Made by a program: the position numbers and the translations under genes
Shown here: positions 861 to 62,605 of the stretch, in pieces
How the letters are laid out: each line of letters begins with the position of its first letter
Numbering within the stretch: the first letter of the stretch is position 1
Notes under the pieces: model-generated
What the model saw: the letters and a program-made list of their open reading frames with translations, nothing else
The model's database searches: none
Told to the model about the DNA's origin: nothing
Source: Siphonodentalium dalli
Taxonomy: Eukaryota; Mollusca; Scaphopoda; Gadilida; Siphonodentaliidae
Reading direction: 5' to 3'
Assembly (NCBI GenBank): GCA_032622095.1
Contig: CP136067.1
Coordinates: 94,664,707 to 94,728,706 of the forward strand
DNA length: 64,000 nucleotides

Positions 861-3800
861 GTATTTACCTGCCATGATAGGGAGAGGGCGCAGGAACATT
901 AGCTGACTAGTTCCTCTTATCATATCACGCAGCATCAATTCTATAGATACCAACAATCAAGCCTTGAAATAGGGTGTCTGTAATTTGCAGAATGAGGTTC
1001 CCAGAGGGTGAATTTGGTGATGCTAGCCTGCTTAGCAGGGTAGCATAACTAAATTCACCCTCTGGGGACCTCATTCTGCATATGACAGACACCATATTTC
1101 AAGGCTTGCCAACAATATTATACTGAAAACTGTAAAAATGTGTCAATGATACTTTATTGGGTGATATTTTACAAAATAAAATACATGGAGGCTGTCAACT
1201 AACTAATAATGACCATGGACTACTGAAGCTAAACCCAGAGCTAGCCGATCCATGGGTGCATTACTTCATTGCTGTGTGCCCCAGAAATAAAAAGTTAAAT
1301 TAAGAACCGTGTACATTTCTTTTTTATATTAGTTCTCTATATTCCGAAATTGGTAGACAACATTGCATAATCGAGGTTCCCAATGGGCGTACATCACAAT
1401 ATTCACCATTTGGGAACTTCAATCTGAGTCTTTGTCTCCCATAGCAGATGAGGCCATGAAGAATGAGGTTCCCAGAGGGTGAATTTGGTGATACTAGCCC
1501 GCTCTGCAGGATAGCGTCACTGAATTCCCCCTCTGGGGACCTCATTCTGCAAATGACAGACACACTAAACTCAGGCTTGGTATGAAGTTACCTCTGGCTA
1601 ATATCTCGGCTGCAAGCCTTGAAATAGTGTGTCTCATTTGCAGAATGAGGTCCCCAGAGGGTGAATTTAGTGATGCTACCTATGCGGGGTAGCATCACCA
1701 AATTCACCCTCTGGGGACCTCATTCTGCTTACACCTCAGCAGAATGAGGTTCCCAGAGGATGAATTTGGTGATGCTAGCCGCATAGCGGGGTAGCATCAC
1801 TAAATTCACCCTCTGGGGACCTCATTCTGCAAATGACAGACACACTATTTCAAGGCTTGCTCGGCTGATTTCAAATTAATTATCGCCATCTCTAGCACTC
1901 AGGCTTGCTGCAGACTGGTATCTTCAACTTAGTCAGTGAATCATACAATTCATGCTTTCTATTTCTTCTATAGGACTAGCACAGATCGATGGTAAAACAG
2001 TTGAAGATATAATAAAAGGTGTGCTCTCTGGATCAGAGGCAAACCAAAACAGCGCCGGTAACTCAGGTAAGAGACGTATGTACTAAATCGTTTCAAACTC
2101 TCGTGTCAGTTTTTGGAAAACAATTCATTTCATTTTTACTTATTGAGAAACAATAAATACAATATACAAAAGAATACCCAACATTTGCACATATTTCGAT
2201 TCTGCGTAGCCGAAAGTTTAAAGACATATTATGTACTTGTTCGTGTGTGTTAAACTGATAAGTTAGTATTCAGGTGCTATGTCAATTGGAGGAATGTAAC
2301 ATTCTACTAACATTGCCGAAAATCTTAAGCAAATCAACTGTGCCACTCCACAGAAAACATGTCTGAACTATGCTCAATTGTAAATATTTACTACTCGATT
2401 CGGGACGCATCAATATATCGGCGATAAACTAATGAAAACAAATTCGCCATCGAGACTCACTGCATTTAATTAATATAAAATAATGACGATGTGTGTTGTC
2501 AATTTGGACATAATATTTGTAAAAATAACTATACCTTGAACAAGATTATTCTCCATTTCTATTTGATCACCCTACAGGAGTGTTTCACATCACTTTAATG
2601 TCACTTTATTATTTTAACATAATTTGTTGAAAATTTTTGCTATGTTGCCCATAAAACATTCTGGGCATTGAATAATTATAGAGAGAATCTTCAGGGCTTT
2701 GTGGGACGGGGGCCTTAAACAGCGTGAATGCTCTTGAATTCAAAAATGTTCATTTGAGGTCTGGAATGTGTTTTAATAAACTTGCAGAGAAATGGCCTTC
2801 AAGTTCATAGTATAATGTCTTGGAAGTTCTTCGAAAATGGATTAGAATTTCTATGATTCTTATGGTAAGTTTAATTTACTATAGGTAACCAGTTCCAACT
2901 GCCGATGCAAGGAGCGATACCAAGACCACAAGGAGCCCAGTCTGGTCTACCGCCTCATCAAGGCGTACCACCAGGTGGTATGGACTTGTCGGGTATGCCA
3001 CCACGAGGTCCAGGCATGCCTCGTGGTCCACCAATGCCTCAGGGCCCACCGATGCCTTCACCTGACGGCCAAGTCCCCGGTCCACAATTCCAAATGATGC
3101 AGCAACAATTCAACCCGAACTTTAGGTATGTATTCCTATTCAAAATAGGCAGAGAGGGTTTTGGTCCATTTGTATAGCAAACTCCATGTATGGTTTGATG
3201 ATTGATAGTGGGCTTCCATCCATTTTACCCTGTGCCAATGCATTCTCTTATATATGCGAGTCGACCATAGGTCGCCTCGCATATATAAGAGAATGCATTG
3301 GCCTAACAATTTTTTTACAATTTTAATAATTTTTTCTTGTATTCTTTAACAATTTTATAATTTCACCCATACAGAGCCCCAGACAAACATCAGCAGACGA
3401 CACTCTTCTATATGCTTCTATATATGTGTGGGGCTCCCTGCAGGGTAATGGATGTTTTTTATTTTATGTCCTAAAAATTGTAAGAAACATTTATTTAAAA
3501 AAAATGATAAAAAATTGTTGGCCAATGCATTCTCTTATATATGCGAGGCGACCTATGGTCGACTCGCATATATAAGAGAATGCATTGGCACAGGGTATTT
3601 TAGGCTGTTGAAGTTCCTCTGTATGTTCTTGTCATGAAATAAGTGTGATAACGTTAACAACTTAAACCAATTTTTACAAAATTTCAGTGTCTGAGAAACA
3701 GAACATTAATGGAACTTTCCTCAGCTGTCAATCAAATAATTATTAGCAGATTGCAGATATATTCTACCAATCAGATACCTACCCAGTAGTTTGTTGCAAT

Positions 3801-9800: not shown

Positions 9801-12800
9801 CAGGCCTGTGTGCATGGTCCCGGAACTCTGCGCATATAACCATTTTATTCGCGTTCAATCCTTCGGGGAATAGTTTTAATTGGTGCAATATAATTGCAGA
9901 ACATTTTTTATACAAACACCACAGAATTGAGATCGAACAGACCCATTTCCCAGTTAACATTTCCAATTCATTTCTGTAATTGGTAACTAAGTTCAAACAT
10001 TTGTTAAACATGTGATAGATTACGACTGCAATCTCAGTAAAAAATACATCGGTTATACTTTAGAGAAAATACATCGTTATACGTTGGTTATATGTCGGAG
10101 AAAATACATCGGTTATACGTTGGAGAAAATACATCGCTTATACATTGGTTATACGTTGAAGAAAATACATTGGTTATACGTTGGTTATACATCGGTTATA
10201 CATCGGAGAAAATACATTGGTTATACGTCGGAGATAATATATCGGTTATACATTGGTTGTACATTGGTTATACATCTGAGATTTATTGCTTCGTTGGCTT
10301 GTGCCATAGAAATAAAAAAAAATGTTTTTTTTAATTTGGCCTGAGAAATGTGAAATGTGACTTGGCATGGCCTTACTGATGAGATACTATAATAGTCTAA
10401 AAAGGATAAGTCTTTAATTTTAAATATTACCTTGAATCCCAGCTTGACTAACACTACTAAGTACTAACACACTTAACCCTTTCATGACTGGAGTTTCCTG
10501 AAATTTTGCGAAAGTACTGTGCTAATGCTTTCTCTTATATCCTTGCATATATAAGAGAATACATTGGCCTAACAATATTTACCTTGTCCTTGTAAGCCAG
10601 TGCATTCTCTTATAAATGTGAAGATCCCTATGTGAGACGCGAATATATAACAATGCACTGGCACAGGATCTTTAATGCTGCACCAGCAAGGCTCCCGTCA
10701 TGAAAGTGTTAAAATTTCTGCATTATTAGTTATATCCCCACTTTTCAAAGAAAAATTGGCTTTGTTTGTCTGCTTTCCATCTGTCAGCCATGTGTTATCA
10801 GATCTACAGTAATGCTCTAAGTAATCGACTCCTTAACCACAGCAGAATTATGGGTGACTTTTCAGGATTTAGTCACCCATAATTCAGCTGTGGTTAAGGA
10901 GTCGATTACTTAGAGCATTACTGTAAATGAAATTTGGTGTGGATGTTTGCTTTCAAAAGAGGAGCAAATACGTTGTTGGCATCAACATTATTCTTCGTTT
11001 ATTTGTATATCTTTGGGGGTTTTGGTTTGGGCATAGATATCTCAGCCATGGGCTATCATATCTGAATGAAATTTGGAATGGAGGTTCGCCATCATGACTG
11101 CTTTCAAAAGATTGTCTAATGGCATTGCTTGCATTTTCTGTGCTAGAGTTATCCTACTTTGTTAATTTTGCATTTGGGTTCCTTTCTGACCATTTTTCAA
11201 TTTGTATACCACCACTCAAGGATCAAGGAGTTTGATTTAATGACACACTCCTTTATCCATGATTCCCAACAGACCTGAGAATATGCTGCCAGACATATCC
11301 AGAATGACGTCCCCAGAGGGTGAATTTAGTGATGCTACCCCGCATGGCTGGCTAGCGTCGCCAAATTCATCCCCTGGGACCTTTTTCTGCATGGCCTCAT
11401 CTGCTATGGGACACCTAGACTCAGATTTAAGTTCCCAGATTTCCAGGTGGTGAATATTGTAATGTCCACCTATTGGGCACTTCGATTATGCAATATGTCA
11501 TTTGACAATTAGGGGATATAGAGAAATTAAACTGCAAAAGAAAAAGAATCTTTGTGAAGAAGTTTTAAAAGAATTTGATTATAATTATACTTTCCAGAGA
11601 AGTTCAAAGTAGAATGAGGTCGACAGAAGGTGAATTTAGTGATGCTAGCATGCTGTGCGGGGTATTGTCACTAAATTCACCCTCTGGGGGACCTCATTCT
11701 GCAAAAGTCCGGCACCATATTTTCAGGCCTGATTCCCAATAATTTACAGAACTCAATCCCACAAAACCTTTTTATCTGCATGAGTAATGCTGAGATATTG
11801 TGAATTGTCAATTCTTATCAGGAAAATCAAAACATAAAATTGATGCTCATTATTCTTATACAATAAAGAAAATAAGATTAATTTTCTTCATTCTAAGTTG
11901 ACATTTTCCATCAGTTCATTGATATAATTGAGCATTGTTATGTAACTATCTCATATAGGTGTGGGTTTCCGAGATCTGTACGCAGGTTGAGGTACCTTTG
12001 CTGTATATTGACAAGTCTGCCACAATGAGTCAATTCAAGCCTAAATATAGCCTAAATATAGTGTGTCTGACATTTGCAGAATGAGGTTCCGAGAGGGTGG
12101 AATTAGTGATGCTACCCCGCCCAGTGGGCTAGCATCACCAATTTCACCCTCTCGGAACCTCATTCTGCTTAGACCTCAACTTCTGGGAAGTGTCTATAGT
12201 CTCAAATTAACATTGTTTTTAGTTACTTTTTCCCTTCTGTTTCAGAAGATAAAATACATAATGGAAGTGACTAATGGGTGAACATGAACTTCGACAGGGA
12301 ACTTCAATCTGATCCTAGGTCTCCCATTTGAGGCCTCAGCAGAATGAGATTCCCAGTGGGTGAATTTGGTGATGCTAGCCCACCATGTTGGATAGTGTCA
12401 CTAACTTCGCCCTCTGGGAACCTCATTCTGCAAATGTCAGACACGTTATATTCAGGCTTGCTATACATGCATTACTGTAACATCCTTCCAGATGAATAAT
12501 AGACAGTTCTAATGTCTAGTTTTATAACTGAAGCCATTTAGTAAAGAGAGGATTAAATGTTAGATGAACTTAAACACAATCTGCTCTATATTACAGCAAG
12601 TTACACAAGATCTTCTGAGAAGACGGCAGCAGGAACAACAGGCCGCAGACGCTGCTGCTATGCCCCCGCCCCCTCCTCCACCACCACTTTCTCAAACAGG
12701 ACCAATGCTGAGTGATTTCATGCCAGGAATAATTCCTCCCGGGAATCTCAGAATGCCTTCTCCTGATGGTAAGCTACAGTAATGCCCTAATTAATCAACT

Positions 12801-18800: not shown

Positions 18801-21800
18801 AACTTATCAGCTTGATTCTCTGAAATGAGCACATAATATGTCCTTAAATAGAGAATAATTATTTGGCCAATGAAATAAAAATTCAGTGTTCTCAGGCACC
18901 TCCTGCGCCACTGAAATTTTCTTTTAAAAAGCCTCATTAAAAAAAAAAAATTATATTAGAAATATTGGATTTGAACAATGAAAATGATTTTATTTTGTTT
19001 CTGGGGTATGTTTTTCAGATTTTGAGAAAAAAATAAAAAATAAAAAGCCTCCCTCCCTCATCTCAAAATTGAGATATAATAAAATAAATTGAAATTTCCA
19101 GCACCTCCCTTGTCAATGGAGAGAGAGCCTCATTTACAATTCTCTGAACCAGGTATCAATATACGGACATTTGCAGAATGATGTTCCCAGAGGGTGAATT
19201 TAGTGATGCTACCCCGCACAGCGGGCTATCCTCACCAAATCATCCTCTGGGCGCCTCATTCTGCATGGCATCATCTTCTATGGGAGACCAAGACTCAGAT
19301 TTAAGTTTCCAGATGGTGATGTGCACCAATTGGGCATAATGAAAACAAAATAACATTAGGACTTGTTTCAAACTTTGTTGATTTATTCCCACTTGACAAC
19401 ATTTCCTGGTCTGAGGTTTCTCTTGTCTTGTCTTGTTCCCGTAGATACATTTATTTTCAAAACAGGCTATCAATTTATGTCTTGTGTTGAATTTCCCAGG
19501 TCCAAAAGGGTTCAACTTTAAGTGATATTTCTGTATATTAATTAAAAGAGCTTTAAAATTCAGCCACATCATCATCCAATGCTGACTTTTATAAAAGAAT
19601 GGTCAATCGATTCGGTTGATCCTTCCATGACTGGAGTTTCCACAATTGTTTGCAAAAACCCTTTGCCACCGCATTCTCTTATATTATATATGTGAGTCTC
19701 CCATAGGGATGCACTGGCACAGGGTCTTTAATGCTGCACCCTTTTGTGGAAGTGTTAATTATGTTGATATCCAGACAATAAATGTGAGAATTTTGCAAAT
19801 TTATATTTATTATAGCCTTTTTTTTTCTCCTCAAAAACTCAGTCCTTTCTTGATCCAATAGCTTTGGAAAGCACAAGAAAACACTATGGCTGATAACTAT
19901 TCTGTCGGAGGGGAAATCTCTTAATATCACGAACTCACTTTATTAGATAACCCTTTCTATACTAAATACTCATTGACGAGTAGTTATCTCATTAACCATT
20001 CTATACTAAATACTCATTTATGAGTAGTTATTCCTCAGGAAAAGTTCAGATAATACTAAATAATCATTGATGTGTAGTTCTCTTAGGAAATGTTCATATA
20101 ATAAGTTCAACAATGTCTTTTGTTGAGCTTATTATCTGAACATTTCCCATCAATGAACATAAATCATTCTACGCTTGTATTATCTGTTTTTCTGTCTGTC
20201 GTCTGCTTTATAAACTGAACACCACTTATAATGAATAATAAACCGTTCCAATGTATAGTTTTATCAAGCATGCAAATAGCGTGTCTATCATATGCAGAAT
20301 GAGGTCCCCAGAGGGTGAATTTAGTGACGCTATCCTGCACATCAGGCTAGCATCACCAAATTCACTCTTTTGGAACCTCATTCTGCTTAGGCCCTCAACT
20401 GCTATGGTAGACCTACGATCAGATTGAAGTTGGTGATGTTCACCTTTTGGGCACCTCGATTATGCATTTTATCTTTTGCAAATTAGGGGATATAGAAACT
20501 TCCCAGAAGGGAAAACGAAACTCAACAATGTTAATTTGAGACTAGTTACTTTCCAGAAGATGAGGCCAAAGCAGAATGAGGTCTCTAGCGGGTGAATTTG
20601 GTGATGCTATCCTGCTATGCGGGATAGCATCACTAAATTCACCCTCTGAGAGGACCTCATTCTGCAAATTACAGACACGTTATTTGCAGGTTTGAGTTTT
20701 ATAACCGATGGGAGAAACCATTCAGTGTAGAGAGGGTTAATTGCACAAACTTTATGTGGGTACATATTTTTTTTTTTTAAACTGGAAAAAAAATGTTTGT
20801 TCTAAATTTGCATGTTTTGGGCATTAAAAATGATTAGTTGATTAAAGTTTTCATCATGAAAATGACTGGGATAATTTGCACTTTAGATTATATGACTCCT
20901 GATTCCCACTTTCTCTGTGTAAACTATATGGTGTTATTATGTTTTAGCTCGTTTCTCTACTGAAATTCAATAAAATGGTATGATTTTGAGGTGCTTGGGT
21001 AAAACGTTTCGGTTTTCTTCTGCTTTCCCCCACTTTATTGTTTTTTTTTCCCAAGCCTTGAAATAGTGTGTGTGACATTTGCAGAATGAGGTCCCCAGAG
21101 GGTGAATGTAGTGACACTATTCCGCACTGTGTGCTAGCGTAACCAAATTCATCCTATGGCGACTTCATTCTGCTTAGGCCTCAGCTGCTATGGGAGACTG
21201 GGATCAGATTGTATTTCCCCAGTTGAAGTTGGTGATGTTCGCCCATTAGTCACCTCGATTATGACTTTTATCTTCTGCAAATTAGGTGATATAGAAACTG
21301 AACAGAAGGGTAAAAGTAACTAAAAATCTTGTTAATTTGAGACTATAGATACTTCCCAGAAGATGAGGCCTAAGCAGAATGGGGTCCCCAGAGGCTGAAT
21401 TTGGTGATGCTAACCCACTGTGCGTGATAGTGTCACTAAATTCACCCTCTGGGAACCTCATTCTGCAAATGACAGACACACTATTTCAAGGCTTGTCTTT
21501 TTCAATTATCCTCCAATATTGCTTCGTGTGCATTGTTTGTATTTTTAAATTTAGGATTTTTAGAATGGTACATATTCATGGCTTTAACCCTTCCATAGCT
21601 GGAGTTACCTGAAATTTTGCGAAAACCCTAACACTATTTACCTTGACCTTGTAAGCCAGTGCATTCTCTTATATATGCGAGGCTCCCTATGGGAGACTCA
21701 TATATATAATAAAATGCACTGGCACAAGATCATTAATGCTGCACCAGCACAGCTCCCGTCATGAACCCCATAAAGTGTTAAGTTGGTTTTAAAGATGGTC

Positions 21801-36800: not shown

Positions 36801-39800
36801 AAATCTGAATTTCCCTATTGACAGTTGTGGAAAGGTCTATAGGATACAGCTTGGTTAAATGCCTACTTAATTTTCGAACCCAGAGATCACATTATATAAA
36901 ATATATGCCATATTATAAAATACCATTTGGAAGCTGCAAAAAATTGTATTTACAACTTATTCGATTTAATAAACTGTGAACATGTTGTTTTTTTTGTGTT
37001 ACAGACATCAGTTCTATGCTCAAGTTTCTGAACAAAGTCTATTATTTTCACTGAAATAACTCAATATATTTTGATATGCAGTTATTCGTTCTGTTGCATT
37101 CTGGAAGCCATAACTGGGGGAAATGATTTTATAATTTCAGCTATTTTCTATTACTCTATGGGCACCTTCAAATGGTGATGAATTATAGTATTTTAATCAT
37201 ATTGTATGGCATAGATTGTTATTAAAACTGGATATCAAGGCACTATAAAAATATTATTCGGTGACTCGAAAATTAAGCGGGGCCCAAGCCTTGAAATAGA
37301 GTGTCTGTCATTTGCATAATGAGGTCCCCAGAGGGTGAATTTAGTGATGCTACCCCGCATATCGGGCTAGCATCACCAAATTCACCGTCTGGGAACCTCA
37401 TTCTGCTTACACCTCCGCAGAATGAGGTTCCCAGAGGGTGAATTTGGTGATGCTAGCCTGCTATGCGGGGTAGCATCACTAAATTCACCCTCTGGGAACC
37501 TCATTCTGCAAATGACAGACACTCTATTTCAAGGGTTGAGTGGGCCTTTAACTAGTTATATTTTTACAGAGAGACCTCCTATTGAAGGTTTACCAACAAG
37601 CGAAGGAATGGTACGATCTCCTTGTCATGGTGACATGATGCGACCACCAGGTCCTGGTGAAATGATTCGACCTCCAAGCGAGATGACTCGACCTTCAGTT
37701 CCAGGGGAGATGATGAGACCACATGGACCTGGAGAGATGATCCGTCCGCATGGTCCAGGAGAAATAATGCGACCCATAGGGGGTGGGGAGATGATGCGAC
37801 CGCTCGGAGAAATGATGATCCGAACACCTGGGGACATGATTAGAGCAGCGGGGGACATGATCCGGGCAGGAATGATACGACCGGGAGGAGAGATGATGCG
37901 AGCAGGGATGGTGGGAATCATGAGAGCTCGTATGCCACCACCTTATCAGGCTCAGATGCCGATGCGTCCCAGAATGCCACGCCCACAAGCTCCCCAGGTC
38001 TGTATGCATTGGTACTTTCCCTCCTTATTAACCTTTTTCAACAATGAATACATTGGAACAGTCCATTCTATTGTTGTAGGGATCTTTAGATACTATGAGC
38101 AGACAACAGGATGAAACAAATAGCTGCACATTTGTGAAGAAAGGTTGAAAACAATCCTACGGCTATTGAATTAATGCCACACGGTAGTTTGTGCACCAAA
38201 ATACATCTTATAATATTCAATTTTGAATTTTCCCGGTATCGAAATAGCTCAATAAATACCTGAGCAATCTTTCTATGAGCATTATATGTCACATGTATAC
38301 ACATTGAAGTCATACAAATTACAACTTCGAACACAATGATTAGGCCCAATCATTATTGTGACCAAGCCTTGAAATAGTGTGTCTGTCAATTTCAGAATGA
38401 GGTCCCCAGAGGGTGAATTTAGTGACGCACCAAATTCACCGTCTGGGAACCTCATTCTGCTGAGGTGTAATCAGAATGAGGTCCCCAGAGGGTGAATTTG
38501 GTGATGCTAGCCTGCTATGCGGGGTAGCATCACTAAATTCACCCTCTGGGGACCTCATTCTGCAAATGACAGACACACTATTTCAAGGCTTGATTGTGAC
38601 ATTTGTATTCATTGCTATTCTGCAATCAGAATCAGAATAACGCGCAACTTCCAGAAAGGGTATATTGCGTTATCTTAACATGAAACAATTTTAAAACTTC
38701 ACGCACTGCTTTCTCTTAATTTTAATCGTCAAAAGTATGTAGTACCATAAACGTTTCTGAGCGGAGATAGCTGCAGATGTTCTTCCCATGGTCTACATGT
38801 GCAATTTTTATGTGACCGCTGGTTAAAAAACTTGAACCGACACAAACAAAACAATTTCAAATTTATCGAAAGATTTTCAGCGCTTTAACAATGAATTTGT
38901 TCTGAAATCTTCTTCGTATGTATATTTTGAGATAACTTTGTATACATAATTCTGGGATTCGAATGAGCCATGTTTGCTTAAGATTCCTACAAAGTAATAC
39001 ACGGAAATTCAACTATCTACTCATAAGTCATCAAAGGGTTAACCCTGTCTATACTAAATGTGACCCGCCATATCAAATCCAGTCGTAAGTCGGGATTTTT
39101 TTTACCCTGTGCCAATGCATTCTCTTATATATGCGAGTCGACCATAGGTCGCCTCGCATATATAGGAGAATGCGTTGGCCTAACAATTTTTTATCATTTT
39201 TTTTAAATTAATGTTTCTGGCAATTTTTAGGACATAAAATAAAAAACATCCATTACTCTGCAGGGAGCCCCACACATATATAGAAGCATATAGAAGAGTG
39301 TCGTCTGCTCATGTTTGTCTGGGGCTCTTTATGGGTGAAATTATAAAATTGTTAAAGACTACAAGAAAAAATTATTAAAATTGTAAAAAATTGTCGGGCC
39401 AATGCATTCTCTTATATATGCAAGGCGACCTATGGTTGACTCGCATATATAAGAGAATGCATTGGCACAGGGTAAAAAAAATCCTGACTTACGACTGGAT
39501 TTGATATGGCGGGTCACAAATACACATTAACAAGTAGTTATCCCTTCAGATATGTTCAGATAATATGTTCACTATTGGTTGTTTGTTGAATTATTATCTT
39601 AACACTTCGCATTCAATAAATAGTATTCCTTCGATGCTTGTAATATCTGTCGTCTGCTTATTCTACCTGAACATCCCTCTAAATCAATAATAGATTATTC
39701 CAATGTAAACTTAACAACATTTACCATAACCTTGTTAGCCAGTGCATTCTCTTAGATAAGCGAGGCTCCCTATGGGAGACTTGCATATATTAGAGAATGT

Positions 39801-42800
39801 ATTCAGATAATAAGTTCTATGGTCGGTTGTTGAACTTATTATTTGAACATTTCCTAAGGGAACCACACATCAGTGAGTATTTTATTTAGTATAGAAAGGG
39901 ATAAATGGTAATTTTCATTCCTGTTTAGAGGACTTTGCCTCTTGCTGAGCATATATTGATTTCTAAAATTCTTGGAAATAAATATAGCTTCCCTCCCTCT
40001 TCATATAAAACTTTTCAATACTAGCTTCATTCTATGCCTACATGACTTCTTCCTTCCCTAATCACATAACACCCTTCAATTCTAGCTTCATTCTATGCCT
40101 ACATGACTTCTTCCTTCCCTAATCACATAACACCCTTCAATTCTAGCTGCATTCTATGCCTACATGACTTCTTCCTTCCCTAATCACATAACACCCTTCA
40201 ATTCTAGCTTCATTCTATGCCTACATGACTTCTTCCTTCCCTAATCACATAACACCCTTCAATTCTAGCTTCATTCTATGCCTACATGACTTCTTCCTTC
40301 CCTAATCACATAACACTCTTCAATACTAGCTTCATTCTATGCCTACATGACTTCTTCCTTCCCTAATCACATAACACCCTTCAATTCTAGCTTCATTCTA
40401 TGCCTACATGACTTCTTCCTTCCCTAATCACATAACACTCTTCAATACTAGCTTCATTCTATGCCTACATGACTTCTTCCTTCCCTAATCACATAACACC
40501 CTTCAATTCTAGCTTCATTCTATGCCTACATGACTTCTTCCTTCCCTAATCACATAACACCCTTCAATTCTAGCTTCATTCTATGCCCACATGACTTCTT
40601 CCTTCCCTAATCACATAACACCCTTCAATTCTAGCTTCATTCTATGCCTACATGACTTCTTCCTTCCCTAATCACACAACACCCTTCAATACTAGCTTCA
40701 TTCTATGCCTACAGGACTGCCTCCCTCACTCTTCACATTGATTTAAACTTATTTTAATTATTATTATGTACAAAGAATGCATTATATATAAGGGATTGGA
40801 GGACAAGTTCTGTAAAACTTGCATGATTCTGTGCTCCCTACAGATGATACATAAACACATGAATATCACAATTTGTTTTGGATTTATATCAGGTTTAGGT
40901 GGGACGGGTGGAATATATATACAGATGATACATAAACACATGAATATCACAATTTATTTTGGATTTATATAATTTTTAGGTAGGACGGCCAGAATATATA
41001 TACACTCTTCAATATTAGTTTCATTCTATGCTTACAGGATTTTGCCTCTTGGCCCGATGCTCAGAAGCTTCAATTTCTAAGGAAGATGAAGGAACATATG
41101 CAAGGCGCCGCAGAGTTATCGGCAGCTCAGGGCGGGGCGCCTGGTGGTGGTCCACAAATGTCACCACACCCTCAACATCAGATGCTACAAATGTCTTCCC
41201 ATCGTGGAATACCACCCCAGATGGCTCAGAGACCACCACCACCACAAGGGTTCCAATTGCAGCAAGTTATACGAATGCCACCATCTTCTCAGGCGGTCGC
41301 CGGGCCTAGTCATGATGCCGTTCCGAGATCGACTACCGATGCTAGGCCAATGGATGTGGACGACGCATCTAAAGCCAGCGATAGTGTGAAATTAGTGGCT
41401 CGACCACAAGACAGACATAGATCAGAAGTGCCCTTAGAAGATATTAATCCCGATGAAGGATTCGATCCATTTGACCTTCTAAGTGAGTTTCGTTATAGCC
41501 TTTTAGTAATCTTGTATGGGTCAATTTATATTGCAATCTCAAGCACAAACTCGAAGCCGCGATGTTGTTCAGACAATATTATTTCGGCTGATATCGGTTA
41601 CTATAAACAACAATCCGGGTTTCCCATCTCTGCAAAATGTCATCAGAGTATGTTGTCATGTGCTGGCATGCACAGTATCAACCAATGGTGCAGTTTCTAA
41701 CACGTTTCTTTCGGGAAAATGCGTTTTTAATCACATTTGGGGGGAAAAGTATGAATGGCTAAGAGCTGTGAAAAGAAAATAAGTATAAAGTGTTCACTTT
41801 GCAAGAAAGAGGTAGACCTGAGCAAGCCTTGAAATAAGGTGTCTGTCATTTGCAGAATGAGGTCCCCAGAGGGTGAATTTAGTGATGCTACCCCCGCATA
41901 GCGGGCTAGCATCACCAAATTCACCCTCTGGGAACCTCATTCTGCTGAGGTGTAAGCAGAATGAGGTTCCCAGAGGGTGAATTTGGTGATGCTAGCCCGC
42001 TATGCGGGGTAGCATCACTAAATTCACCCTCTGGGGACCTCATTCTGCAAATGACAGACACCTTATTTCAAGGCTAGGACCTGAGTTCTGGAGTTAATTT
42101 AACCTCTTTGAACACTGTAAACTGACACAGTAGGAATTTATTTTCCTCATACCATAAAAAATAAATACCTGAATTATCATCAGCCACCTATCCGATATTT
42201 GGTCCCGCGTTGGCTTAATTTTTTTTTTATTCTTTACACAAGATCACCCACAACTTGATCATAGTTTTAACAATGGATTGTGGAATTCACAGATCTCACA
42301 AATAAGTTCCACAAAAATAATGTCCAAAGATGGTAATCCAATTAGCATAGCAGCAGTTAGAAAGTTAACCCTTTCATGACGGGAGCTGCACTTGCACAAC
42401 AATAAAGACCCTGTGCCATTGCATTATTTTTATCATATTTTCTGACATTCTATAACAATTTTTATCATTTTAGATAATTTTTTCTTACATTCTTTAACAA
42501 TTTTTATAATTTTTTCCAATTTTTCTTACATTCTTTAACAATTATAAAAAATAATATAAAATTAGTTAGACCAATGCATTATCTTATATATGCGAGGCGA
42601 CTTATGGTCATACTGTTGAGTATCGGAGCATGTTCTGATCAAACTAGAGCAGCGCCTGCAATGGCTGCAGCCGGTTCATTGGTTGGCTATTACAAATGAC
42701 TGGGATAATATTGTAATGTTTAAAAGCGTGTTAGAGCAAGTAGTTGGTTAATCGCTATATAAAACTCATTATTTACGTATCTAGAGAAGGACTTTTCTTG

Positions 42801-57800: not shown

Positions 57801-60800
57801 TGCTAGATACTCAAAATCAGGGCATGATCAATGCCTACTTTCCTTGTAAATGTCAGTTATAAATGTGAGTTTTTAATGATTACTAATTTTTGAGTGCGCT
57901 CTGTGAATTTCCACAGCTCATGTACTATTTTATCTCGTTAAACAAATGCTTAAAGTGATGTGAAACACTCCTGTAGGGTGATCAAATAGAAATCTTGCTC
58001 AAAGTAGTTATTTAAAAAAATGATCATATCCAAGTTGACAACACACACCGTCATTCTTGTATATTAATTAAATGCAGTGACTCTTGGTGGCGAAATTATT
58101 TTCATTAGTTTATCACCAATAGTTGCGTCCCAAATCGAGAAGTAAATATTTACAATTGAGCGTAGTTCAGACAATGTTTTCTATGGAGTATGGAGTGGAA
58201 CGGTCGATTTGCTTGAAATTTTCGGCGATGTTAGTATAATGCTACATTCCTCCAGTTAACATAGCCCCTGAATACTAACTGATCAGTTTCACGCACCCGA
58301 ATAAGTCCATAATTTGTCTTTAAATATGTTTTAAACAAATTTGAAAGCAAACCAGCTTTGAATTTATAGAGACTTGATCGGTGATGTAGGTTTCTGGCCC
58401 TTATACTTTTTTTTTTCAATTACACACTGTAAAAGCTGAGGGTAATTAATCTCTGCTCCATGGTTAAAAGACTGACACATTTCAGGGAGATGATATCTCC
58501 TAACTCGCCTCTGTGAACGTTATCTCTGCATGTTGCGAACTATTTTCTTTTTGTCTATTTCAGGAAAAGAAAGAGCAAGAGCGACAGATACATCATGTAA
58601 TGTTACAGGGACCTGTTAGACCCGAGGTTCTTATACCCCCCAGTCCCAGGCCAGGTAAGTCACTCGGTAAATGGATACATCATGTAATGTTAAAATAATA
58701 AATATGAATTGAGGACACCCATCTGGAAAAGTTTCTATCAATTAATATAAATTATATTTATAATTTCTTATCATATCAGCAGGACAGTTTCATGGGCTAT
58801 TTTTAGAACAAATCCGCACAAAAACATTCTGAATTTCCAAAAAAGAGAACTCTTTAACTTTGTAGCAACCTTAATCACGTCTCATTGCATTCATTTTCAC
58901 CATGATCTTACGATTGAAACAAACCACATTATGCCTTTATAGACAAATAATATACCAAATCTTCAGTTGTGTCTGTATTTTATAGCAATTTGTAGTCTTG
59001 TGATCGGGATTTATAAAATTTATGTTGTTGTAATTGTGGCCCGGGAGAGATGGACCATCTTTAAAATTTGTTATTTGTTTCATTCTAGCAGTTGGGCCTG
59101 GAATGGTCCCCAATATGCCAACAACACCGACCAAAGATTCCAGCATTAGGCTGACTGGTCCCCCGACTCCCGGATCTCCAGGACAACAAGGCTTTTCTCA
59201 AAGGTTCCCAAACAGACCACCCATGCCCCCCGGTCAGCCGGGAATGCCGCCACATTCTATGCCTGGTCAAGGTCACATGCCGATGCGCATGTCGATGATG
59301 GTCCCGGGTCAGCCAGGAATGGCGGGTATGCCTGGAATACCAGGTCAGCCAGGAATGCCGGGTCCACCAGGTCAGCCAGGAATGCCGGGTCTGCCAGGAA
59401 TGCCAGGTCATCCAGGAATGCCTGGTCTACCAGGAATGCCGGGTCTGCCAGGAATGCCAGGTCCGCCAGGAATGCCGGGTCTGCCAGGAATGCCAGGAAT
59501 GCCGGGTCCGCCAGGAATGCCGGGTCCGCCAGGAATGCCAGGTCAGATAACATTGCCAGGACAACCACCCATGAGAGGACCTCCACCACTTCCGGGTCAG
59601 CTTCAAATGCCTGGACAGCCTCCGATGCCCGGGCAGCCACCGTTGCCAGGTCAGATGCATCCTGGGCAGCCACCTATGTTCCCGTCGATCGCCATGCCTC
59701 CTCCAACACCCCCACACCCTGGCAAGTATCCTTATGTCTATGCCTTGAAATAGTGTCTGTCATTTGCAGAATGAGGTCCCCAGAGAATGAATTTAGTGAC
59801 CACCTTGCACATCAGGCTAGCTTCAATAAATTCACCAACTGAGGACCTCATTCTGCTTAGGACCCCTATCTGGGAAGTATCTATAGTCTCAAATTAACAT
59901 TGTTTTTAGTTACATTTTCCCTTCTGTTTCTATATCCCCTAACTTGCAGAAGATAAAATGCATAATCGAGGTGACTAATGGGTGAACATCACCAACTTTA
60001 ACTATGGAACATTAATCTGATCCTAAGCAGAATTAGGTTCCCAGAGGAGGAATTTGGTGATTCTATCCCAGTGTGTATATGAATATAAATGTGAAATTTC
60101 TCATTTGATCTGAAGATAAATAATTTTTTAAGGTTTCTTGGAAGCAGAAATGAGCCCTTAGAAGCGAAGAAATAGCTTCTTTTGATGTCAAATTAAAACA
60201 AAATTTCTTGCTACAATTGCGGCCTTGTGGTCCATGGTCTGCTGCTTTGTGCACTAATTAAAGGCCCACTTAATTTTTGAACCCTCAGATAATTTTAAAT
60301 AAAATATATGCCATATTATATACCATTTGGAAGAGGAAGCTCCAAAACATTGTATTATCAACTTATTCCATGTAATTAGCTGTGAACATGTTGTTACTGA
60401 CTTGTGTTCTGTGCTCAAGTTTCTTTATTTTCAATGGAAGGGGAATAACTCTATATCTCGATATCTTAAGATATAGAGTTATTCCCCTTTACATTTTTTG
60501 CTTGAATTCTGCATTCTGGGAGCCATAATGGTGGAAATCTTTCTATGATATCAGCTGTTTTCTAATTCTCTATGGGCATCTTCTGAGACACAGACATTTC
60601 AAATGGTGATGAATTATAGTATTTTAATCTTATTTTATGGCATAGATTGTTATTAAAACCGTATAATAAGACACTATAAAAAAAATAATCGTGACTCGAA
60701 AATTGTAAAGATTATATGCCGTTTAAGTCAATTTCATAAATTAACTGCTTTATTTACAGACGAGACAGGACCAGAGGCGGAAAAAAAGCATATGAAGTAT

Positions 60801-60914: not shown

Positions 60915-60922
60915 GTATGTAT

Positions 60923-62281
60923 TAGTGCTGAAACGGATATCCGGATATCCGGTTAACAACCGGCTACCGTCGGCAACCGGTTGAACTACGATCAACCGGT
61001 TAACCGCTATGTATTACACACATGCAATGCCACTGATAAAAACTAACGTATTCAGGTCCTTAATCGGCATAGACTGATAACAGTAGCTTTTAAACATGGG
61101 TACTTTATCAATTTTGCTACAAGCGTTATCACTCAGGGGGTATACATTCGAAATTACGCATATTAAAAGTAAAAATCTGGTGCCAGATCAAGTCTTCCAT
61201 GAATGGCATATTACATAGTCTGGCATTAGCCGGTAAACATCAAAGATGCATGACGTCATCTTTGACTTTGATGTTCCGATGTCTGGTAAAACATATGCAC
61301 TGACGCCACTGGGTCATCGGCAAAGATCAATACAATCGTTTTCACTGCAGTATTAGTATACGGCGTGGTCATTTGACATCTACTCTCCGACTGACTACTT
61401 GTAGATAGTATCATGGATACCAAAGATATTAGTAAATCAGATGTCTGGGCACATTTCAAAGAGAAATTGGCAGAATGCAAACTCTGAGAACCAACCCTAT
61501 TTACATACGCTCGGTCTATATACTTCTAACATTACTGAGTTTGAGTAATCTCAGTTGATGAAATTCAAATGAACTCGAATCAAAATGGTGTTCCCCTGCA
61601 GTCGGACTTATTTGCATCCTAATGACTAATTCTCAGCATTTGATTGTCTTCTAACAGAAAACAGTGTTTTTAGCAGGTTTTCAGCTGTTTTTTTAAATTT
61701 TCATTTGTTAACTACATAAAGTTCACAAACTTCATAATTGTGTTTATCGGTCGTCAGTCATCGTATCTATCTCAAATCGCCAAAGAACACCCAGCGGTTA
61801 GAATACCTGAGTCACATGACTTAATAATCGGCCAGTCCCGCAATCGCTATAATGGCAATACAAAACTGTCGATATTTGCATGTATGAACATGTATATAGG
61901 TCACACAATATTCTTCCCAAAATGAGAACGATAACAAGTCAGGTAGCAGTCGCAACTGCAGTACTAATAGGTCAAGCATGACATGTCTATTTATAAACAC
62001 TGCGAGTTTTAGTTCACTGTCATCTGCCAAGTTGTCAACACGTGGCTTTGTTACGTTCGTGTTTGGTGATTTACATTCGTTTAATACAAGCTCTGTCTGT
62101 GTAAACATTACGCGAGTTTGCCATACAGTTAATAAATCAAATTATGCTGATATATGGGTACAAATTATAGTATAAATAATCAGTATAAAGTCATAGGTTG
62201 AAAATAGCGGATAACCGGTTATGATCCGGTTACACGTCGCGGTTAACCGGCTACAAAAATAGGTCAACCGTTTCATCACTA
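60923..62281. mobile_element. Non-autonomous hAT-type DNA transposon inserted at the exon 23 donor
   Basis: Terminal repeats are TAGTGCTGAAACGG at 60923-60936 and the complement of TAGTGATGAAACGG at 62268-62281. Direct repeats GTATGTAT (8 bp) are at 60915-60922 and 62282-62289. TIR sequence, length and 8-bp TSD fit the hAT superfamily. Subterminal CCGGTTAACC-type motifs recur at both ends. A short frame at 61413-61487 (SDVWAHFKEKLAECK) looks like the start of a BED zinc finger and is cut by a stop after 24 codons. No transposase remains. Confidence 0.93.
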
Positions 62282-62297
62282 GTATGTATCACATTGG

Positions 62298-62345
62298 TGC
62301 CAGAAACAGTCAAGTATGAATCTCATTGGTGCCAGAAACAATCAT
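62298..62345 (+). repeat. 32-bp tandem copies of the exon 23 donor region
   Basis: TGCCAGAAACAGTCAAGTAT at 62298 and TGCCAGAAACAATCATAGTG at 62330 repeat the end of exon 23, TGCCAGAAACAGACAGGTAT (from 60899). Before the hAT insertion these three would have lain head to tail. Confidence 0.9.
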
Positions 62346-62438
62346 AGTGTTATTGATACAAATGGAGCATAGATGCCCTTATGAGAAAATGATGTGGCAA
62401 CGAACCCCTTATTATCAAAGGCTGATGTCTAAATCATG

Positions 62439-62605
62439 TACAGTAATGCCCTAAATTATCAACTCCTTAACCACAGCAGAATTATGGGTAATTTTTCAGG
62501 ATTTAGTCGGAAAAATGGCAACAAGCCATATTTCTGACTAAATCCTGAGAAGTTTCCCATAATTCTGCTGTGGTTAAGGAGTCAATTATTTAGGGCATTA
62601 CTGTA
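62439..62605. repeat. Family C palindromic MITE, shortened
   Basis: Starts TACAGTAATGCCCTAAATTA and ends TATTTAGGGCATTACTGTA. The centre is partly lost. Confidence 0.92.

Follow-up and report, generated by a model that had tools for sequence, protein, structure and literature searches.

A hAT-like element at a 5' splice site of a KMT2C/D-like gene in the scaphopod Siphonodentalium dalli, with a target-site duplication coinciding with intron positions +1 to +8

The window analysed here is a 64,000-nucleotide stretch of the 2.23-Gb genome of Siphonodentalium dalli (C7:94664707-94728706; the genome has nine large contigs), and it carries part of a large gene on the plus strand. The exons flanking the insertion described below presumably resemble those of KMT2C/D. 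A genome search, which reported two FYRN places, found a FYRN domain at C7:94776107-94776289, on the same strand as the gene and 47 kb beyond the window. Given this domain and the likeness of the exons, the host gene is probably a relative of KMT2C/D, i.e. a large histone-methyltransferase-like gene. The coding exon of interest (exon 23, 60760-60914, plus strand) has a frame that is open to ..INARNRQ at 60914 and ends in phase 0; its borders, like those of the other exons, were read from the sequence and not from RNA. Searched against Pfam it gave no match, and against the PDB a single match at chance level. The downstream exon, AKKNGLEMNPTDATELDRLSQDLGVLQKQLDQLRKQ.. (AKKNGLEMN..), begins at 64750 in window numbering, just outside the window, after TTCCAG. 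Position +1 of the intron between them is 60915, and the intron measures 3835 bp with the element and 2468 bp without it. The preceding intron has an apparent GC donor, CTG/GCAAGTAT, at 59722 (59721-59724), which would keep the frame when spliced to the exon beginning at 60760. The exon of the same gene at 59094-59721 encodes collagen-like repeats (Pfam Collagen, E = 2.5e-14).

The 5' splice site of exon 23, CAG/GTATGTAT, occupies 60912-60922 on the plus strand (positions -3 to +8). Its intronic part, GTATGTAT at 60915-60922, is repeated exactly at 62282-62289, and the 1359 bp between the two copies (60923-62281, plus strand) form a non-autonomous hAT-like element. The first-pass annotation had described the target-site duplication (TSD) as the first eight bases of the intron, with an element starting at +9 and a second copy about 1.36 kb downstream, and these coordinates bear it out in full. 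The left terminal inverted repeat, TAGTGCTGAAACGG (60923-60936), is the same end as in the family copies described below, and the right one, CCGTTTCATCACTA (62268-62281), departs by a T from the family end CAGCACTA, in place of which the window copy has CATCACTA. Compared as inverted repeats, the 14-base ends (TAGTGCTGAAACGG and TAGTGATGAAACGG) match at 13 of 14 positions. The short terminal inverted repeat motif of hAT elements is YARNG, and TAGTG at both ends of the element fits this type. When the window was scanned for 14-bp inverted repeats (one mismatch or none) flanked by 8-bp direct repeats, 19 pairs came up, the present insertion among them, against none in 20 Markov resamples; with two mismatches allowed, there were 27 pairs in the window and one pair in one of the 20 resamples. 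Many of the 19 pairs are other repeats with AATGCATT inside their own ends. In a six-frame Pfam search of the element, no intact transposase was found. A broken, possible remnant of a BED zinc finger, which would derive from a transposase N-terminus, lies at 61413-61529 on the plus strand (zf-BED, E = 0.091, 13.2 bits, under the cut-off of 20.6 bits), and the one remaining match was to DUF7944 (E = 0.16). Since the BED match falls under the cut-off, membership of hAT rests on the length of the TSD and on the ends.

The locus contains its own empty-site control. The donor sits inside a tandem array of 2.5 copies of a 32-bp unit that runs across the exon end (60899-60922, then 62290-62344). Unit 1 is split by the element into 60899-60922 and a remainder, CACATTGG, at 62290-62297; unit 2 (62298-62329, 32 bp) is identical to the rejoined unit 1 at 28 of 32 positions; and unit 3 (62330-62344, 15 bp) is partial, all on the plus strand. 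Unit 2 includes a decayed donor-like site, CAA/GTATGAAT, at 62314, with a U1 duplex energy of -4.0 kcal/mol. Array units do contain GTATG(T/A)AT, and the second GTATGTAT could accordingly be read as part of the pre-existing array instead of a target duplication. Unit 1, however, measures 32 bp when the element and one GTATGTAT are removed and 40 bp when both copies are kept, and the family produces 8-bp duplications elsewhere. On this register and these TSDs, the array reading was rejected and strikes us as scarcely credible. Because the 32-bp register appears only with one GTATGTAT removed, the array is older than the element, and 8 bp were duplicated on insertion. We found no paralogous empty site in the assembly, where the only full match to the right flank (62282-62438) is its own locus; three short matches in other places all fall within query positions 50-109. 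Directly beyond this flank, at 62439-62605, lies a fold-back element of two 81-bp arms separated by 5 bp, with many relatives in the window.

The element belongs to a family with many ends across the genome. Exact TAGTGCTGAAAC ends number 1071 in the 2.23 Gb, versus 107 for a reversed-pattern control. A genome search for copies, in which 40 of 1170 candidates were scored, gave at least 42 matches including the window copy, and 38 stretches were fetched, covering 39 of the 41 others. Both ends with matching 8-bp TSDs are present in 26 of these 38 (22 exact, four with one mismatch); the other 12 were left out as an end was missing, the flank was altered or, in one case (L030), the repeat had been read one base off register. 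Together with the array register, these duplications support the earlier description of a hAT-like element with a true 8-bp TSD. The window copy differs from the majority of 27 aligned copies by 1.19%, in a range of 0.82-3.06%, and is thus among the less diverged of them. The left end combined with the subterminal motif had no exact match in the viral and prokaryote collections.

The two copies of GTATGTAT differ in their donor contexts. In a simple model of U1 pairing that ignores other factors, the exon donor at 60915 forms a duplex of -10.2 kcal/mol, and only eight of the window's 6561 GT sites (both strands), itself included, are as strong or stronger. From -3 to +8 this donor and its energy are identical with the element present and in the rejoined empty site. 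The claim that the working donor had been kept and the landing had done no damage thus stands at the level of sequence. The second copy was described by the first-pass annotation as a second donor by which exon boundaries could shift. It does retain +1 to +8 of the donor, but it is preceded by CTA rather than CAG (CTA/GTATGTAT), its duplex reaches -3.7 kcal/mol, and 1740 of the 6561 GT sites on both strands are as strong; it is not an equal donor. Splicing from it would lengthen the exon by 1367 nt, change the reading frame and bring in a stop after 13 codons (VCISAETDIRISG), so that a boundary shift of this kind would be damaging. We therefore rejected the reading in which the second copy serves as a donor and the element moved or duplicated a functional exon boundary, and consider it most improbable in view of the weak pairing, the frame shift and the early stop. 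The strongest other GT of the intron inside the window, CAG/GTAGCAGT at 61943 (-7.7 kcal/mol), lies within the element. A candidate donor of the same gene at 3126 also reads GTATGTAT (TAG/GTATGTAT), and the 8-mer therefore looks ordinary as a donor in this gene.

The position of the insertion was compared with its neighbours by in-silico insertion at 19 offsets (-6 to +13, with no zero). Insertion before +1 destroys the upstream donor, and at +1 to +7 it yields two strong donor copies; at +8 and beyond, the upstream donor stays whole and the copy downstream is either weak or missing. In this model, the actual insertion is at the first harmless offset. The statement that an insertion here would normally disrupt splicing was too strong for an element at +9, which is outside the -3 to +8 pairing window, and other family ends lie at +15 and +21 behind apparent exons (see below). 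Models of local pre-mRNA folding with and without the element showed no clear change in donor pairing; much of the donor is in a hairpin in both, and folding thus gives no sign of an open donor.

These observations are consistent with the following sequence of events. A non-autonomous hAT-like copy would have inserted once at the start of an existing intron of the KMT2C/D-like gene, through a staggered cut spanning +1 to +8. Repair would then have duplicated the 8 bp, one copy staying on the exon as an unchanged strong donor and the other coming to lie after the element, where exon context is lacking. In the usual staggered-cut chemistry, gap filling would resynthesise the GTATGTAT that stays with the exon. 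The idea that the TSD restores the splice signal is fair as a mechanism to this extent. Splicing would presumably continue from 60915 to the acceptor before 64750, and the element would be removed as part of an intron lengthened from 2468 to 3835 bp. The insertion, which appears to be neutral, may be tolerated because at +9 it lies immediately beyond the bases paired with U1. The fit of the TSD to the donor is most likely chance among about a thousand family ends and the other families that duplicate 8 bp.

An alternative is that hAT elements prefer donor-like targets in the +1 to +8 register, which would make donors natural, donor-safe landing sites. In excerpts of published work, the target motif is nTnnnnAn for Hermes (PMC10368747) and GTNCGNAC for hobo (PMC3276498); as far as these excerpts go, hAT motifs agree with the donor consensus at +1/+2 (GT), +5 (G) and +7 (A). 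The present TSD fits nTnnnnAn, and at this donor +8 is the only one of the 19 scanned offsets to do so. Among 16 candidate donors of the window, picked by our coding score and U1 energy, five (this one included) carry the motif in the +1 to +8 register, the highest count of 21 offsets, at a base rate of 6355 in 63993 window positions. GT also begins 11 of 52 symmetrised family TSDs, compared with 5.2% GT in the window. Nevertheless, the motif recurs at +14 in four of the 16 donors and at +5 and -1 in three, and a mere three of the 26 distinct TSDs of the family fit it, which is about the base rate. As the family TSDs do not follow nTnnnnAn, the target-motif idea was lowered. A matrix built from the 26 TSDs prefers the donor +1 to +8 register 1.6-fold, but the offsets -4, +5 and +12 score about equally or higher; by the same matrix, the present TSD is in the top 18.1% of window 8-mers. 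In an extended form of this idea, the hAT integration motif would coincide with the 5' splice site consensus in a single register, with GT at +1/+2 and A at +7 in common, so that hAT elements are pre-adapted for harmless landing on donors. This register would be the nearest to the exon in which an 8-bp duplication keeps the original donor dominant over a weak downstream copy. The extension as a whole seems to us decidedly doubtful. If it were true, pre-adapted hAT landing would let introns grow unnoticed from their donor ends.

The family as a whole bears on the same question. The donor-like string GTRNGTNN stands directly before an exact family end at six places in the genome, against none in the control, which provides the comparison with other copies proposed in the first-pass annotation. 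Donor-like targets do occur, but a recognised coding exon precedes one of the six, the window copy (CAG/GTATGTAT, with 86 open codons). Another copy (L052) has the identical GTATGTAT on both sides, preceded by TCG, with at most 36 open codons and no Pfam match, and a short exon there is possible. The same holds for a copy with 51 open codons and no Pfam match (L050), whose site, GCA/GTGTGTTC, is poor (-3.1 kcal/mol). The remaining three have at most 37 open codons. With the exon bases included, CAGGTRNGT precedes an exact end by no more than 30 bases at five places, the window copy among them, and in the control at none; a scrambled motif of the same make-up likewise has no place within 30 bases of an end. 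At one of these sites (L063, near position 1503), the end is at +15 with GCCAGTAC duplicated on both sides, and a 34-codon frame resembles a 2OG-Fe(II) oxygenase (E = 0.00023, under the family cut-off). Two more ends, at +21 in near-duplicate loci separated by 126 kb (L059 and L060, reverse strand, near position 1503), stand behind a 61-codon frame that is lectin-exon-like (Ricin_B_lectin, E = 0.016 for the last 40 codons, under the cut-off). A further end, at +33 (L062), has frames of 33 and 37 codons; the 33-codon frame, the only one searched, had no Pfam match. The related AAGGTRNGT adds one place, with an end at +28 (L064). Ends at +15 and +21 behind apparent exons indicate that an element can sit close behind a donor without having duplicated it.

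Family ends therefore lie near donor-like sites more often than in the single scrambled control. At 31-60 bases before an end, CAGGTRNGT occurs at no place and AAGGTRNGT at four, so that the two together give six places at 0-30 bases versus four, about as many, at 31-60, and family ends do not pile up at donors. The converse query, a right end followed by donor-like letters, returned 22 places against 22 in the control, the query being too short. These counts fit chance combined with tolerance, and a weak target preference is possible; favoured landing in the +1 to +8 register we judge to be unlikely. The suggestion that the locus reveals a route for landing on donors likewise goes too far: a single case speaks for tolerance, the modelled bias is 1.6-fold, and the same TSD occurs in L052, where no exon was recognised.

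On the assumption that the genome has 200,000 donors and the family 500-1000 copies, some 0.05-0.15 exact hits would be expected for this one family. The coincidence is thus not trivially expected for this family, and chance becomes comfortable only when other families are counted. Weighing all of this, we regard a chance insertion at an existing donor, tolerated because it falls outside the U1 pairing, as the best reading of the locus and very probably the right one.

Ds-type elements are deletion derivatives within the hAT superfamily. Spliced maize Ds insertions are exonic and rely on splice sites that the element itself contains. Removal of a hAT element by splicing would be common to both systems, but here the host donor would suffice. 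Introners, reportedly treated by Huff et al. in 2016, are a further comparison. According to excerpts of Gozashti et al. (2022; PMC9860276), they are likewise DNA transposons whose TSD contains the 5' splice site, but they give rise to a new intron, whose splice sites they supply or co-opt. The putative donor at 60915 coincides with the duplicated 8 bp here, but it existed before the insertion, and the acceptor before 64750 is outside the element. Membership among the Introners, as a new intron in coding sequence, was rejected, since the donor, the 2468-bp intron and the acceptor all remain when the element is removed. With non-autonomous hAT elements, for which Hermes and hobo serve as references, the present family shares an 8-bp TSD, a short terminal inverted repeat beginning with TAG and several hundred copies, and it may share a BED remnant; it differs in that no intact transposase was found and in its TSDs, which fit nTnnnnAn at about the base rate (three of 26).

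Among titles and abstract openings from the literature on hAT insertions and splice sites, we recognised no report of a hAT TSD equal to donor positions +1 to +8, although one may exist. The locus adds a new example to a known class, that of hAT-like elements inserted in introns, and its internal control for the empty site is unusually good. It offers a clean case of a transposon beside a splice donor with no apparent harm, the tandem array being the built-in control. As a single case, probably owed to chance, it leaves accepted ideas unchanged and does not amount to a novel means of shifting exon boundaries. The general question that it raises is whether hAT insertions pile up at donor +1 to +8 compared with neighbouring offsets. 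Six other elements with 8-bp duplications, chosen among the 27 pairs that the window scan gave, are all 332 bp or more away from candidate donors. The window holds six copies of another short family, with ends like CAAGCCTTGAAATA and exact 8-bp flanking repeats, at 950-1116, 1605-1867, 11262-11739, 20257-20702, 38355-38600 and 41815-42085.
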